64,000 bases of DNA from Bacteroidaceae bacterium (GTDB lineage Bacteria; Bacteroidota; Bacteroidia; Bacteroidales; Bacteroidaceae), in contig JAGCDE010000001.1 in assembly GCA_017651315.1 (NCBI GenBank), forward strand, positions 1-64,000. The letters are read 5' to 3'. Every line of letters begins with the position of its first letter. Within the stretch, counting starts at the first letter, position 1. A program made the translations under genes and the position numbers. Positions 58,206-64,000 of this stretch are shown piece by piece. The notes under the pieces are model-generated. The model searched no databases and had not been told where the DNA came from. It saw nothing but the letters and a program-made list of their open reading frames with translations.

Positions 58206-60851
58206 ATGAAAAGAACCTTAATCGTATTGGCCGCGATGTCACTTGCTTTGGCATCCTGCGGCGGTGGAAAGTATGAGTATCCTTTCCAGAACCCTAACCT
58301 AAAGGTTGACAAACGTGTCGATAACCTGATGTCGCTGCTCACCCCGGAGGAGAAAGTGGGACTCATCATGAACAAGTCCGTTTCAGTGGACCGTCTTGGA
58401 ATCCCATCCTACAACTGGTGGTCAGAGGCCTGCCACGGCGTGCGTCAGGGTGGCTACACTGTGTTCCCGCAGCCCATCGGCATGGGTGCCTCCTTCAACG
58501 AGCAGCTGGTCTATGATGTCTTCACGGCTGTGTCCGATGAGGCCCGCGCCAACTGGAACCGTTCAAATCATGACATCTTCAACGTTCAGATGGGTGCCAA
58601 CTACACACCCGGCAACCCTGAGCTTACGTTCTGGTGCCCGAACGTGAACCTTTTCCGTGACCCGCGCTGGGGTCGTGGTCAGGAGGCCTACGGTGAGGAT
58701 CCCTACCACATGAGTGTCCTTGGTGTGGCTAACGTCAAGGGTATGCAGGGCAATGACAAGAAGTATTACAAGACCCACGCCTGCGCCAAGCACTATGCCG
58801 TGCACAGCGGCCCTGAGTCACAGCGTCACCGCTATGACGCAGTGGTGTCAATGCGTGACCTGTGGGAAACCTATCTGCCCGCTTTCAAGGCTCTCGTGCA
58901 AGAGGGTAACGTACAGGAGGTCATGTGCGCCTACAACCGCTATGAGGGTGAGCCCTGCTGCGCAAGTGACCGTCTGCTCACGAATATCCTTCGTGAAAAA
59001 TGGGGATATAAGGCAATCGTTCTGACAGACTGCGATGCCATAAACAACTTCTTCAACAGGAACCAGCACGGAACCCATCCGGATGCCGAGAGCGCATCGG
59101 TCGATGCAGTCCTGTCCGGTACGGACCTGGAGTGCGGCCGTGCATTCATGTCGCTGGTCGGCGGTCTGGAGGATGGCAAGATCAACGAGGCCGATATTGA
59201 TGTTGCTCTCCGCCGCGTTCTGAAAGGCCGTTTCGAACTGGGTATGTTCGATCCCGCCGAGATGCTGCCCTGGGCAAATTTCGGACCTGAGGTCATCAGC
59301 AGCGAGAAGAATGACGAGCTGGCTGTAGAGGCTGCCCGTCAGGCTATGGTGCTGCTCAAGAACAACGGCGTTCTCCCGCTCAGCAAGAGCATAAAGAAAC
59401 TGGCTGTGGTAGGTCCCAACGCTGCCGATGCAGGCATGATGAACGGTGAGTACGGCGGCAGCCCCACACGTGAGCATACCCGTACGCTGCTTGACGGTAT
59501 CAGGAAGTATTTCCCCAATACCGAGATTGTATATGACCGTGCGTGCGAGGTACGCAACGAGTACTATACCACATATTACACCCAGGATATCAACGGCGGC
59601 CAGGGTCTCAAGGGCGAGTTCTGGAAGAATGCCGAGTTCAAGGGCGCTCCCGCAGTGACCGGCAACTACAAGGAGGTTAACTTCTCCAACTTCGGTGCCT
59701 ACAACTTTGTGCAGGGTCTGGACCAGAGCGATAACATATCGGCACGTCTTACCGGTAAGCTCGTGGCTCCGTTCACAGGTGACATGAACTACAGCATCAA
59801 CTCAGACAACGGCTTCAAGCTCTATGTGAACGGCCGTCTGGTAGAGGAGCAGCAGGCCGGTCAGGGCGGCGGTGGCCGTGGCGGCTTCGGCGGCGGCTTT
59901 GGCGGTTTCGGACGTGGCGGCGCAATGCAGCAGATGAAGTCCTTCAAGGTTGTCAAGGGTCAGTCATACGATATCAAGGTTGAATATACCCACGCTACAG
60001 GTAACTTCGCCCGCTTGAACGCCCAGTTCTGCGTGCAGAAGATTGCCGAGTTCGGTGACCTTGCCAAGAGCCTTGTTGACCAGAACGTGGAGGCTATAAT
60101 CATTATAGGTGGTATCACTCCTTCCATGGAGGGTGAAGGCGGTGACAAGCCTGACATTGAGATTCCTGCAGTTCAGCAGCGCCTTATCCGTGCTATGCAC
60201 GCTACCGGCAAGCCCGTCATATTCGTTGACTGCGCAGGCTCATGCATGGGATTCGGAAGCCTTGAGGACCAGTTCGACGCCCTCATCCAGGCCTGGTATC
60301 CCGGTCAGGGCGGTTCACAGGCTCTCGCCGAGATCCTGAACGGTGACTGCAACCCCAGCGCCAAGCTGCCTGTTACATTCTACAAGAGCACAGACCAGCT
60401 GCCCGAGTTCACAGACTACTCGATGGAAGGCCGCACATACCGCTACTTCAAGGGCGAACCTCTCTATCCGTTCGGTTACGGTCTGAGCTACACCACTTAC
60501 AAGTACGGTCAGGCTACCCTGTCCAAGAACTCCATGAAGAAGAACGGCAGCGTGACCATCACCATTCCGGTTACAAACACCGGCAAGCGTGAGGGTACAG
60601 AGATTGTCCAGGTCTATGTCAAGAGCCTTGACAATCCGGCAGCTCCCATCAAGGGTCTGCAGGGCTTCCAGCGCGTGACTCTCAAGGCAGGTGAGACCGG
60701 CAATGCCGTCATCACACTGACCGGTAAGTCGTTCCAGTACTACGACGAGAAGATTGACGAGCTGTCAACCTTCAGCGGCCGTTACAAGCTCCTCTACGGC
60801 TCTTCATCAGCCGACAAGGACCTTCAGTCACTCGACTTCGAGGTGCTCTGA
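58206..60851 (+). CDS. GH3 beta-xylosidase/glucosidase lipoprotein with PA14 domain and GGF insert
   Basis: An 881-aa protein with lipobox LALASC (Cys ~18), so probably membrane-anchored. The GH3 barrel (~40-350) has FRDPRWGRGQEAYGEDP and the nucleophile region VLTDCDAI (D275). The sandwich domain (~375-740) is interrupted by a PA14 domain (~460-620), which contains a glycine-rich insert at ~549-577 (GGRGGFGGGFGGFGRGG). A fibronectin III-like C-terminus follows. The barrel sequence suggests a plant-type beta-xylosidase rather than the glucosidase type at 17148. It is a single-gene unit. Confidence 0.9.
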   Translation: MKRTLIVLAAMSLALASCGGGKYEYPFQNPNLKVDKRVDNLMSLLTPEEKVGLIMNKSVSVDRLGIPSYNWWSEACHGVRQGGYTVFPQPIGMGASFNEQLVYDVFTAVSDEARANWNRSNHDIFNVQMGANYTPGNPELTFWCPNVNLFRDPRWGRGQEAYGEDPYHMSVLGVANVKGMQGNDKKYYKTHACAKHYAVHSGPESQRHRYDAVVSMRDLWETYLPAFKALVQEGNVQEVMCAYNRYEGEPCCASDRLLTNILREKWGYKAIVLTDCDAINNFFNRNQHGTHPDAESASVDAVLSGTDLECGRAFMSLVGGLEDGKINEADIDVALRRVLKGRFELGMFDPAEMLPWANFGPEVISSEKNDELAVEAARQAMVLLKNNGVLPLSKSIKKLAVVGPNAADAGMMNGEYGGSPTREHTRTLLDGIRKYFPNTEIVYDRACEVRNEYYTTYYTQDINGGQGLKGEFWKNAEFKGAPAVTGNYKEVNFSNFGAYNFVQGLDQSDNISARLTGKLVAPFTGDMNYSINSDNGFKLYVNGRLVEEQQAGQGGGGRGGFGGGFGGFGRGGAMQQMKSFKVVKGQSYDIKVEYTHATGNFARLNAQFCVQKIAEFGDLAKSLVDQNVEAIIIIGGITPSMEGEGGDKPDIEIPAVQQRLIRAMHATGKPVIFVDCAGSCMGFGSLEDQFDALIQAWYPGQGGSQALAEILNGDCNPSAKLPVTFYKSTDQLPEFTDYSMEGRTYRYFKGEPLYPFGYGLSYTTYKYGQATLSKNSMKKNGSVTITIPVTNTGKREGTEIVQVYVKSLDNPAAPIKGLQGFQRVTLKAGETGNAVITLTGKSFQYYDEKIDELSTFSGRYKLLYGSSSADKDLQSLDFEVL

Positions 60852-60888
60852 TTCCTACCATCAGGCATCTTGCCAAAGTATGACATAA

Positions 60889-60921: not shown

Positions 60922-60991
60922 CTGTGTAGTGCCCCTTCAAAATGACCCTTTGTTCCACACAAATCTGTGATAGAGTGTACTCAATAAAAAC

Positions 60992-61035
60992 GTGGCAAAA
61001 ATTTAAGTTATAATTTTTATTATTATATTTGCCAC
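60992..61035 (+). promoter_or_regulatory. Promoter and palindromic operator of the Xre-ImmA-PIN module
   Basis: TATATTTG (61024-61031) is a perfect -7 box. Arms GTGGCAAA (60992-60999) and TTTGCCAC (61028-61035) form a perfect 8-bp dyad that brackets the promoter spacer. The leader to ATG 61070 is about 33 nt. The arrangement fits autorepression by the Xre protein. Confidence 0.65.
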
Positions 61036-61069
61036 AGATTTTGCATTTGTACTGAAAGAAGAGAGAATT

Positions 61070-61408
61070 ATGAGCAACGTGATTGGAAGAAACCTGAAAG
61101 TGCTGCGTGAGGCCAATGATTTGACGCAAGAGCAGATGTCAAGCTACCTTGGCATCGGGCGTAGTGCGTATGCTAATTATGAGGCTGGCGAGCGCGAGGC
61201 TCCGCTGGAGGTATTGGAACGCTCAGCATCTTTGCTGGGTTGTGAGTTGGAATTACTGTTCGAACTGGATATGGAGACAGTGAAAGACCAGATGATGGTT
61301 TGCGCCTTCCGCACAGACGGGCTGACAGAGGCCGATATGAAGCAGGTGGCACGTTTCAAGCAAGTGGTGCTGGAGTATATGAAAATGCAGAGAATGCTCG
61401 GAGAATGA
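61070..61408 (+). CDS. Xre-family helix-turn-helix regulator/antitoxin
   Basis: A 112-aa protein. Residues ~6-60 are an Xre HTH (LKVLREANDLTQEQMSSYLG, SAYANYEAGER). The C-terminal part is helical (EADMKQVARFKQVVLEY) and probably mediates dimerisation or partner binding. The stop overlaps the ImmA start (ATGA). In Xre/ImmA systems this protein represses the operon and is the substrate of the protease. Confidence 0.9.
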   Translation: MSNVIGRNLKVLREANDLTQEQMSSYLGIGRSAYANYEAGEREAPLEVLERSASLLGCELELLFELDMETVKDQMMVCAFRTDGLTEADMKQVARFKQVVLEYMKMQRMLGE

Positions 61409-62115
61409 AGAGGTTAACCAAAGAAGCCATCGAGCAGCTGGCGCTTAAAATGCGATTACAGGCAGGCTTGAACCCGTCAGAGCCTATCCACACGAAGACG
61501 CTGCTCAGAAAACTGGGGATTATGGTCATCTATCGTCCCCTCTCAGAGAAGGCTTGCGGTCTTTCGATGCGCTCAGCCGACGGACGTGGAAAGTTCATGC
61601 TCATCAACTCGAACAATTCGCGCGGACGCCAGCACTTCACCATTTGCCACGAGCTGTTCCATCTGTATTACGACGAGGAACCGAAACCGCACATATGCGG
61701 CACCCCCGGTTTGGAGAAAAATCCCGCCGAGATCAATGCCAACGCCTTTGCCTCAGCCCTACTTTTGCCACAGGCAGGTGTATTGGAGTTGATACATTCG
61801 GAAGAGATTGTGAACCGTCACATCTCCACCGCCACGATGCTGCGTGTGGAGCAGTTGTTTGGTGTCAGCCACCAGTCACTGTGCTATTGTCTCCGCCACC
61901 TGCGCCTGCTTACCGAAGAGGAATTGCAGGATCATTTAGCCGAGAGCATGGAGATTCAGCAGATTGCCACAGAATACGGTTATGACCTTTCGCTTTATCA
62001 GCCAGGCAACGAAGGCGTGGTGATAGGCGATTTCGGTGAGAAAGCACGCCTGTTGTTCGAGCAGGAACGCATTTCCGAGGGCCACTATGTTGAACTGTTA
62101 AACCTACTGAAATAA
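61405..62115 (+). CDS. ImmA/IrrE-family metallopeptidase
   Basis: A 236-aa protein starting at ATG 61405, overlapping the previous stop by 4 nt. Zinc site: HELFH at residues 82-86 within FTICHELFHLYY, and third ligand E109 in EINANAFASALLLP. The C-terminal half resembles the extra domain of COG2856 proteins. Known members cleave an Xre-type repressor (ImmR, DdrO) in response to DNA damage or conjugation signals; in some loci the same pair acts as toxin-antitoxin. The PIN gene follows 2 nt after the stop. Confidence 0.92.
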   Translation: MKRLTKEAIEQLALKMRLQAGLNPSEPIHTKTLLRKLGIMVIYRPLSEKACGLSMRSADGRGKFMLINSNNSRGRQHFTICHELFHLYYDEEPKPHICGTPGLEKNPAEINANAFASALLLPQAGVLELIHSEEIVNRHISTATMLRVEQLFGVSHQSLCYCLRHLRLLTEEELQDHLAESMEIQQIATEYGYDLSLYQPGNEGVVIGDFGEKARLLFEQERISEGHYVELLNLLK

Positions 62116-62117
62116 GG

Positions 62118-62645
62118 ATGGCCAAAGGAGCAAAGATAAAGATACAGATTGTCTTGGATGCAGATGTTGTGATACACTTCGCCAAAGGGGGACGGCTCAG
62201 TCAGTTGCCCAGCATTTTCCCTGACTATGAATACGTGTTGCTGGAAGCTGTGCACGAGGAATTGCAGTCGGACATTAGGACGCAAGTTGACAATCAGATC
62301 ATGCTGTTGAAGACCATTACGCTCCACTCCTTTGCGCCTCATGGCGAGATGCTTCGCGAATATGCCATGCTAAGAAGCCGATTCGGTAAGGGCGAGAGTG
62401 CCTGCATGGCCTATTGTCTGTTTACCCACAATGTGATAGGTAGCAGTAATCTGTGCGACATCCGTGCTTATTGCCAAGAGAAGCAGATAACGTATCTCAC
62501 TACGATAGACTTTCTCTGGTACGCATGGCGTAAGCATCTGATGACTACTGATGAGATAAAGACGTTCATCTGCGAAGTAAGGTCAAAAGGAAGTATTTTG
62601 CCTGAAGTGGATATAGAGAAGTATGTATGTGATACAGTTTTGTAA
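62118..62645 (+). CDS. PIN-like nuclease, third gene of the Xre-ImmA module
   Basis: A 175-aa protein with PIN acids in order: D14 and D16 (IVLDADVVIHF), E43 and nearby E47/E48 (LLEAVHEEL), E92 (GKGESACMAY) and D113 (NLCDIRAYC). It is likely an RNase effector. It differs clearly from the 140-aa PIN toxin at 271. Two base pairs separate it from the ImmA gene, so all three genes form one coupled operon. Whether it is toxin, effector or regulator is open. Confidence 0.8.
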   Translation: MAKGAKIKIQIVLDADVVIHFAKGGRLSQLPSIFPDYEYVLLEAVHEELQSDIRTQVDNQIMLLKTITLHSFAPHGEMLREYAMLRSRFGKGESACMAYCLFTHNVIGSSNLCDIRAYCQEKQITYLTTIDFLWYAWRKHLMTTDEIKTFICEVRSKGSILPEVDIEKYVCDTVL

Positions 62646-62735
62646 GCAGAATTCTCTCATATGAGAACTCGGATTCCTTTGTTAAAAATAGAAGTAAAAC
62701 TAAATACCGTTAACAACTAATTATTTAGGTTAAAG

Positions 62736-62829: not shown

Positions 62830-63201
62830 ATGAAGGCATTGACAGAGAAAGAGCAGATGGTAATGAGTGTGCTTTGGGAGCATCGTCATTGCGGCGTTGA
62901 GGATGTGATAAGTCACCTTGGCGAGCCCAAGCCCGCGTACAATACCATCCTTACGTTCCTCCGCATCCTTGAGCAGAAAGGTTTCATATACTATGAGGTA
63001 AAAGGAAAGAAACATATCTATTATCCTGTAATAGAAAAAGGAGAGTACACCCGATGGACACTTACCGATATGAAGGATAAACTCTTTAACGGTTCGGCCC
63101 GTTCCATGGTGAACACATTTATCCTGGAGTCGGGCCTGTCGGAATCCGATGTACGTGAACTCATCGGGATGTTGAACGAACTTGAAACTTCAAAGCTATG
63201 A
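62830..63201 (+). CDS. BlaI/MecI/CopY-family repressor, second copy
   Basis: A 123-aa winged-helix repressor (LTEKEQMVMSVLWEH; AYNTILTFLRILEQKGF). An in-frame GTG at 62803 is less likely: ATG 62830 (MKALTEKEQ) lines up with the first BlaI-type protein at 1072. The C-terminal part is helical. The stop overlaps the ATG of the M56 gene (ATGA). The pair repeats the gene order at 1072-3674. Confidence 0.9.
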   Translation: MKALTEKEQMVMSVLWEHRHCGVEDVISHLGEPKPAYNTILTFLRILEQKGFIYYEVKGKKHIYYPVIEKGEYTRWTLTDMKDKLFNGSARSMVNTFILESGLSESDVRELIGMLNELETSKL

Positions 63202-64000
63202 TTTACCTTGTTGTCTCGGCAATTTCGCTCGCCTTGATGGTGATTGTCTATCGCCTGGCCTTGAGCCGCACCACTTTCCATGGTTTCAACCGTTATGTGC
63301 TGTTGTCGTCATTGGCTCTCGCTGCGGTTCTGCCGCTTATACATCTGCAGGGCCTGGGTGTCAAGGCTGCCGGTCCGGTGGCCTACATGCTGAACGAGAT
63401 AACGGTTTTTGCCGACGGCTCCACCCGTATAGCTCCGGCGGCTGCACAGACCGCAAACGGTGTCGGCATAGTGTCAATCCTTACCTTGGTCTGGCTGGCA
63501 GGGGTGGCTGTATGCCTGATGAGGGTGGCTATAGGTATAGTCAGTTCCGAGATAATATGCCATCACCGTTCCAGAAGGCTTTCCGACGGTTCCCGCCTTG
63601 TCATAACCGGACGTGACTACGCGCCTTTCAGCTGGCGTAACTTCATAGTCATCTCAAGGAAGGATTATGAGAGCAACGGTGACATTATAATAGCCCACGA
63701 GCAGGCGCACATAAGGCTTCACCATTCGGTTGACCTCATTCTGGCCCAGTTGTTCTGCGCCGTCCAATGGTTCAACCCCGCTGCATGGATGCTCAAGCGC
63801 AGTCTGCTTGAGGTCCATGAATACGAGGCCGACGCCTCCGTGCTGGAGCGCGGCTTTGACGAGTGCCGTTATCAGATATGTCTGGTCCGTGCCGCCCTGC
63901 AAGGCAGGTTCGCGGTCACCACAAATAACTTTGCCAATTGTTCAACCAAAAAAAGAATAGTTATGATGAAAAGAATTTCAACCAATCCTTGGGCGCGTAT
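63198..64000 (+). CDS. BlaR1-like M56 membrane peptidase, second copy, cut by the window end
   Basis: The frame opens at ATG 63198 (overlapping the repressor stop) and is still open at 64000, giving 267 visible residues. It has N-terminal membrane segments, the zinc motif HEQAH at 167-171 in IIIAHEQAHIRLHHS, and EVHEYEADASVLERG as the third-ligand region. The visible end, KKRIVMMKRISTNP, matches the linker before the second membrane segment of the 1440 protein (KKRIIMLNKNQTR). It therefore probably continues into a periplasmic domain, perhaps also TonB-like, beyond the window. Confidence 0.9.
   Translation, partial: MIYLVVSAISLALMVIVYRLALSRTTFHGFNRYVLLSSLALAAVLPLIHLQGLGVKAAGPVAYMLNEITVFADGSTRIAPAAAQTANGVGIVSILTLVWLAGVAVCLMRVAIGIVSSEIICHHRSRRLSDGSRLVITGRDYAPFSWRNFIVISRKDYESNGDIIIAHEQAHIRLHHSVDLILAQLFCAVQWFNPAAWMLKRSLLEVHEYEADASVLERGFDECRYQICLVRAALQGRFAVTTNNFANCSTKKRIVMMKRISTNPWAR

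Follow-up and report, generated by a model that had tools for sequence, protein, structure and literature searches.

The DNA analysed here (the window, a 64,000-nucleotide stretch from a Bacteroidaceae bacterium) contains a cassette of three genes that is probably a mobile, self-regulated, protease-gated toxin-antitoxin module, and a split form of the layout in which a fused Xre-ImmA protein precedes a PIN gene. The module probably has a CapH/CapP-type switch and is probably used in phage defence. The three genes lie on the forward strand and form a single operon behind a palindromic operator. The first (61070 to 61408) encodes a 112-aa Xre protein of the Cro/C1 helix-turn-helix (HTH) type (Pfam HTH_3, 1.3e-12), which is a candidate repressor and antitoxin. 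The second (61405 to 62115) encodes a 236-aa ImmA/IrrE (M78) metallopeptidase (Pfam Peptidase_M78, 3.8e-18), and the third (62118 to 62645) a 175-aa PIN-like nuclease, the candidate toxin. The ATG of ImmA overlaps the stop codon of Xre in an ATGA junction, and PIN starts 2 nt past the stop codon of ImmA. The open reading frames thus bore out a first-pass annotation of this DNA, which had described an Xre/ImmA/PIN module with these two junctions.

The third protein showed no credible Pfam match (the best, at E 0.2, was to an unrelated family) and no NCBIfam match. It was assigned to the PIN class because its relatives are matched by the PADLOC model PDC-S70 (14 of 16, best 2.1e-7; window protein, 0.0014) and share conserved acids; PDC-S70 is called a PIN nuclease in the available text of PMC12988326. 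D14, D16 and D131 are each found in 82 of 83 sequences, E48 and E93 in all 83, and D114, which the first-pass annotation had numbered D113, in 80. Nuclease activity appears likely, not certain, because Asn111, invariant in 83/83 sequences, stands where PIN proteins usually have their fourth acid when the family is aligned with two remote relatives. No solved relative of the family was detected even at E 10, its remote members also matched no PIN family above the Pfam cut-offs, and DUF4411 gave no match among 16 members at E up to 1. The PADLOC model PDC-M69C matched weakly (8 of 16 members at E up to 0.1, best 0.0012, the window protein not among them); in 247 genomes of the phylum it gave two weak matches, neither with Xre, ImmA or the PIN family beside it. 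One of the 16 members was matched by the PADLOC model RT_UG20 at 5e-6, hinting at related domains in a DRT system.

Homologous loci were collected with PIN as the query, which biases the set towards this gene: the best 80 of 219 relatives from a scan of named genomes and six from a viral scan. Xre, ImmA and PIN occurred in this order at 82 of the 86 loci, and the other four were cut by contig starts. The possibility that PIN stands beside ImmA in one strain only, raised with the first-pass annotation, did not hold, and a strain-specific accident is ruled out by these 82 loci with all three genes. By their titles, almost all the records come from Bacteroidales or Bacteroidetes groups, many of them of ruminant origin. 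The gap between Xre and ImmA is −4 in 61 of the 82 loci, and the start of PIN overlaps the end of ImmA in 69. Shortened copies exist, with minimum lengths of 79 (Xre), 150 (ImmA) and 121 aa (PIN). A copy of this otherwise Bacteroidales-type module was also found in a record titled Pseudoflavonifractor (L099), which may reflect transfer or a mislabelled MAG.

Among 399 genomes of the family, a set that partly overlaps the 86 loci, PIN was present in 15, each time preceded by Xre and ImmA on the same strand. A search with ImmA as the query detected 18 genomes, namely the same 15 and G178, G218 and G380. The locus of G218 is cut by a contig end, and G380 encodes a distant fused Xre-ImmA protein. 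G178 (L131:1200-1490) keeps the operator, Xre and ImmA together with a short remnant of PIN, a loss expected if PIN is the harmful part. PIN is present in 15 of 17 ImmA-family genomes.

Pairwise distances of the three proteins correlated with r of 0.845-0.875 (permuted maximum, 0.128); this shows joint inheritance, not contact. All three genes are under purifying selection, with pN/pS of 0.045-0.181 against nine close relatives. In a search of the phylum, the PIN profile matched in 5 of 395 genomes, of which three have the split form (two already in the set) and two the fused form. In the latter (L139 and L140), one fused Xre-ImmA protein directly precedes PIN and has Phe-Arg or Tyr-Arg at the junction. 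Split and fused Xre-ImmA forms thus both precede related PIN genes. A Hymenobacter plasmid copy (L141:6841-8504) has ImmA in two overlapping frames and lies near a reverse transcriptase gene.

The operator (60992 to 61035) is an inverted pair of half-sites, GTGGCAAA and TTTGCCAC, with a spacing of 28 bp in the window copy. The regions upstream of Xre were scanned in the window copy and in 79 of the 82 loci, 80 in all. With two or fewer mismatches in 16 positions allowed, 76 of them carry the pair over the promoter, compared with 0 of 4000 mononucleotide shuffles. Fifty-eight of these copies are perfect, 15 have one mismatch and three have two, and the spacing is 28-30 bp in 72 of the 76. The usual promoter element of Bacteroidetes is TAnnTTTG, and the right arm forms the TTTG of this box in 74 of the 76 copies. 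The palindrome seen in the first-pass annotation is therefore real and far stronger than was said there. An exact copy of the pair is found only once in the window's own genome (83% complete), so Xre probably acts on itself alone, by autoregulation without a wider regulon. The reading as a DdrO-like global regulator was rejected because of this single exact operator. The exact pair was found in 15 of the 399 family genomes, in nine of them at Xre-ImmA loci and in six elsewhere (a reversed control pattern, in three genomes), and was absent from 8 of 17 genomes of the window's ImmA family, which counts against its use as a family signature. A mismatch scan of five of the eight copies lacking the exact pair (all but L008, L011 and L012) located it with two or three mismatches in L004, L013 and L015 and found none at up to three mismatches in L016 and L017. 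In viral contigs, 88 stretches contained the operator pattern, counted by pattern alone.

Xre and ImmA both resemble the parts of a proteolytic switch. Outside the HTH match, Xre has F80 and R81, each invariant in 83/83 sequences. This pair is similar to the site at which VapB52 is proposed to be cut, and by analogy Phe80-Arg81 is the predicted cleavage site of Xre. The PADLOC capH model matched Xre in 16 of 16 relatives over nearly its full length; PDC-M69A matched 12 of 16 (best 5.9e-7, window 8.3e-4), and capH and other HTH models scored better. The metallopeptidase residues of ImmA are H82, E83, H86 and E109, and the HELFH motif named in the first-pass annotation is present as residues 82-86. 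ImmA was matched in 16 of 16 relatives by the capP model and also in 16 of 16 by PDC-M69B (best 3.1e-29, window 1.3e-20), and the best PDB match of its family profile was the CapP chain 7t5t (3e-7). Cys98, 12 residues past H86 and aligned with a cysteine of this chain, is found in 75 of 83 sequences and is possibly the residue of a cysteine switch; its absence from the other eight indicates that such a switch is not universal.

In the mechanism that we propose, Xre would bind both half-sites that cover the promoter of its own gene and so keep expression of the operon low, as suggested by the conservation of the operator. Gene order, overlap and co-inheritance suggest that Xre, the conserved C-terminal part of ImmA, or both, would hold PIN inactive. 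The trigger would most likely be single-stranded DNA (ssDNA) arising from DNA damage or phage replication; PprI is likewise reported to be stimulated by ssDNA (PMC10904395, available part). By comparison with CapP and VapB52, the trigger would open the cysteine switch, upon which ImmA would cut Xre beside Phe80-Arg81. Loss of Xre would derepress the operon and free or over-produce PIN, which may then cut tRNA or other RNA, so that growth would stop and infection would be abortive.

The neighbourhoods of the module agree in part with a role in defence. In 14 of the 82 loci, an HsdR-like gene is one of the four genes closest to the module on one side or the other. The expected number is 0.32, which serves as a rough indication because it was calculated from 86 HSDR_N matches in 61 genomes with rounded sizes and with related loci treated as independent. 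These 14 genes are of at least three types by eye, and one is an 89-residue fragment. A Pfam search of the neighbours confirmed HsdR for one cluster member and HsdS for one gene, and it identified two Eco57I-type enzymes; HsdM in L048 and L098 was named by eye. Some copies of the module lie inside type I restriction-modification loci. The PADLOC enrichment is modest and counts as weak evidence, with the type I restriction enzyme model matching 5 of 124 neighbour genes and 1 of 124 control genes (124 of 139 deredundant genes, 156 before, compared over the best 25 of 306 families, and of 166 for the control). No CBASS family was among these best 25 of 306, and the control stretches also contained a type III CRISPR locus. 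The window copy is flanked by metabolic and BlaI/M56 genes and lies in no visible defence island. An extension of the proposed mechanism, which we offer only tentatively and consider unlikely as a whole, is that one proteolytic cut in trans would eliminate two things at once, the repressor and the partner that binds the toxin, and a single ssDNA-sensing protease would thereby switch on an RNase toxin. Where HsdR follows PIN, restriction would also be raised, which would place abortive infection and DNA restriction behind a single gate that responds to DNA damage.

Such HsdR genes also bear on an alternative that we consider rather improbable, in which Xre and ImmA form a transcription-only controller of the CapH/CapP type. 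The pair would then be a DNA-damage switch and PIN, sometimes with a following HsdR, the controlled effector, without protein-protein neutralisation. According to the available text of PMC13373217, CapH and CapP regulate the immune operons beside them (CapH/CapP are also described in PMC10904395), and they share with the window family a separate HTH repressor and M78 protease, the near full-length capH match and the aligned cysteine. The capH and capP matches in all 16 relatives, the position of CapP as best PDB match, and the HsdR-like genes that start within 10 bp of the PIN stop codon in L059, L063, L070, L075 and L083 also favour a controller. However, a general controller should meet varied effectors, as CapH/CapP do in the operons described, whereas the window family has its own PIN gene at all 82 uncut loci, a count biased by the PIN query, and in 15 of 17 ImmA-family genomes. 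The fused relatives moreover share the antitoxin layout of RosmerTA and VapBC52, and VapB52 is reported to bind its toxin (PMC13273310, available part), which speaks against this alternative.

VapBC52 of Mycobacterium tuberculosis is a characterised fused two-gene system, for which the available text of PMC13273310 reports ssDNA-triggered self-cleavage of the antitoxin and a C-terminal antitoxin domain that blocks the active site of the toxin. Its HTH-like domain, IrrE peptidase with a cysteine switch, FR motif and PIN toxin all recall the window module. The blocking domain would be compatible with a RosmerTA-like arrangement in which ImmA itself neutralises the toxin directly and Xre only represses the operon; on mean, residues 187-233 of ImmA are the most conserved part of the protein (0.75, compared with 0.64 for residues 41-165). 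No sequence match between this tail and VapB52 was seen, as the profile met chain 9vzy, taken as VapB52 from its length and name, only at query positions 48-175, and we regard a direct ImmA antitoxin as improbable. The toxin-antitoxin module proposed here differs from VapBC52 as described in that the VapBC52 antitoxin is one fused, self-cutting protein, whereas Xre and ImmA are separate genes that are fused only in the remote L139 and L140. The VapBC52 toxin is compared in that text with DUF4411 PIN proteins, whereas the window PIN family has no credible Pfam match.

A three-component toxin-antitoxin system (TAS) with these parts was predicted in 2009, reportedly by Makarova et al. The available text of PMC2701414 describes operons in which COG2856-Xre genes accompany PIN or RelE toxins, suggests "a novel, three-component TAS" and proposes that the protease cleaves the Xre repressor, so that both the components and the proposed logic are those of the window module. 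The first-pass annotation had suggested a protease-controlled repressor that releases an RNase effector; this fits our findings, but the layout is not new in kind, as it was predicted in 2009 and similar models are listed by PADLOC. What is available of the 2009 work is a prediction with the fused COG2856-Xre form foremost, and gives no operator, cleavage site or defined family. PADLOC lists PDC-M69, a candidate phage defence system that has three components by the names of its models; model A matches Xre, model B ImmA and model C PIN. With a strong B match and weak A and C matches, the window module is at best a divergent member, judged by the models and not by a system definition; no paper using the PDC-M69 names was found in the literature searched. 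RosmerTA has an ImmA-domain antitoxin with a variable toxin, and the available text of PMC10440598 associates ImmA/Rosmer antitoxins with PIN-like domains and reports antiphage activity of one member. In RosmerTA the HTH is frequently part of the antitoxin protein itself, and the toxin that was tested depolarises membranes, whereas in the window HTH and ImmA are split, and the RmrA models accordingly matched Xre and ImmA on two separate proteins. The conserved antitoxin-toxin operon with its own operator that characterises type II, VapBC-like, protease-gated systems is found in the window family. A search by title and abstract start found no experimental study of the split form within the literature searched. 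In this well-defined Bacteroidales family, for which a conserved operator and a predicted cleavage site and switch residue can now be named, the 2009 prediction can be tested directly. Because related PIN genes follow both split and fused forms, the family also forms a bridge between separate CapH/CapP-like regulators and fused antitoxins of the RosmerTA/VapBC52 type.

The cassette is located between a GH3 gene and a BlaI gene. We compared this place with the 14 BlaI loci closest to it within the genus. Ten of them, in ten genomes, show GH3 followed directly by BlaI, with 130-456 bp between and no module; the remaining four had no GH3 match in 1.5 kb upstream and other reading frames instead. 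Because these ten same-genus genomes show the empty site, the cassette is a discrete insertion of about 1.78 kb (~60928-62705) with no genes besides these three. Two of the ten genomes define the left edge at 60927, and the others lose similarity at 60847-60852. No integrase gene was found inside the cassette. Elsewhere, one copy lies between terminase large subunit and portal genes on a phage-like contig (L113:2052-7885), and another beside a terminase gene (L002). Xre/ImmA pairs are known switches of prophages and ICEs, which together with the copies in phage-like contigs might suggest a regulatory or decayed prophage remnant without toxin function, but purifying selection on all three genes, the conserved operator, single in its own genome, and an insertion of only three genes make this very improbable.

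Directly downstream of the cassette, positions 62830-64000 of the window encode a BlaI-like repressor and an M56 peptidase as a pair, and a second BlaI homologue is located on contig C55 of the same genome. In another genome of the genus (L144:615-1320), a RelB antitoxin and a PIN_3 protein occupy the slot upstream of BlaI. Homology of this PIN_3 protein to the window PIN family was unsupported, as the profiles align over 13 columns with a probability of 1.0 percent. The slot upstream of BlaI may attract toxin-antitoxin cassettes.
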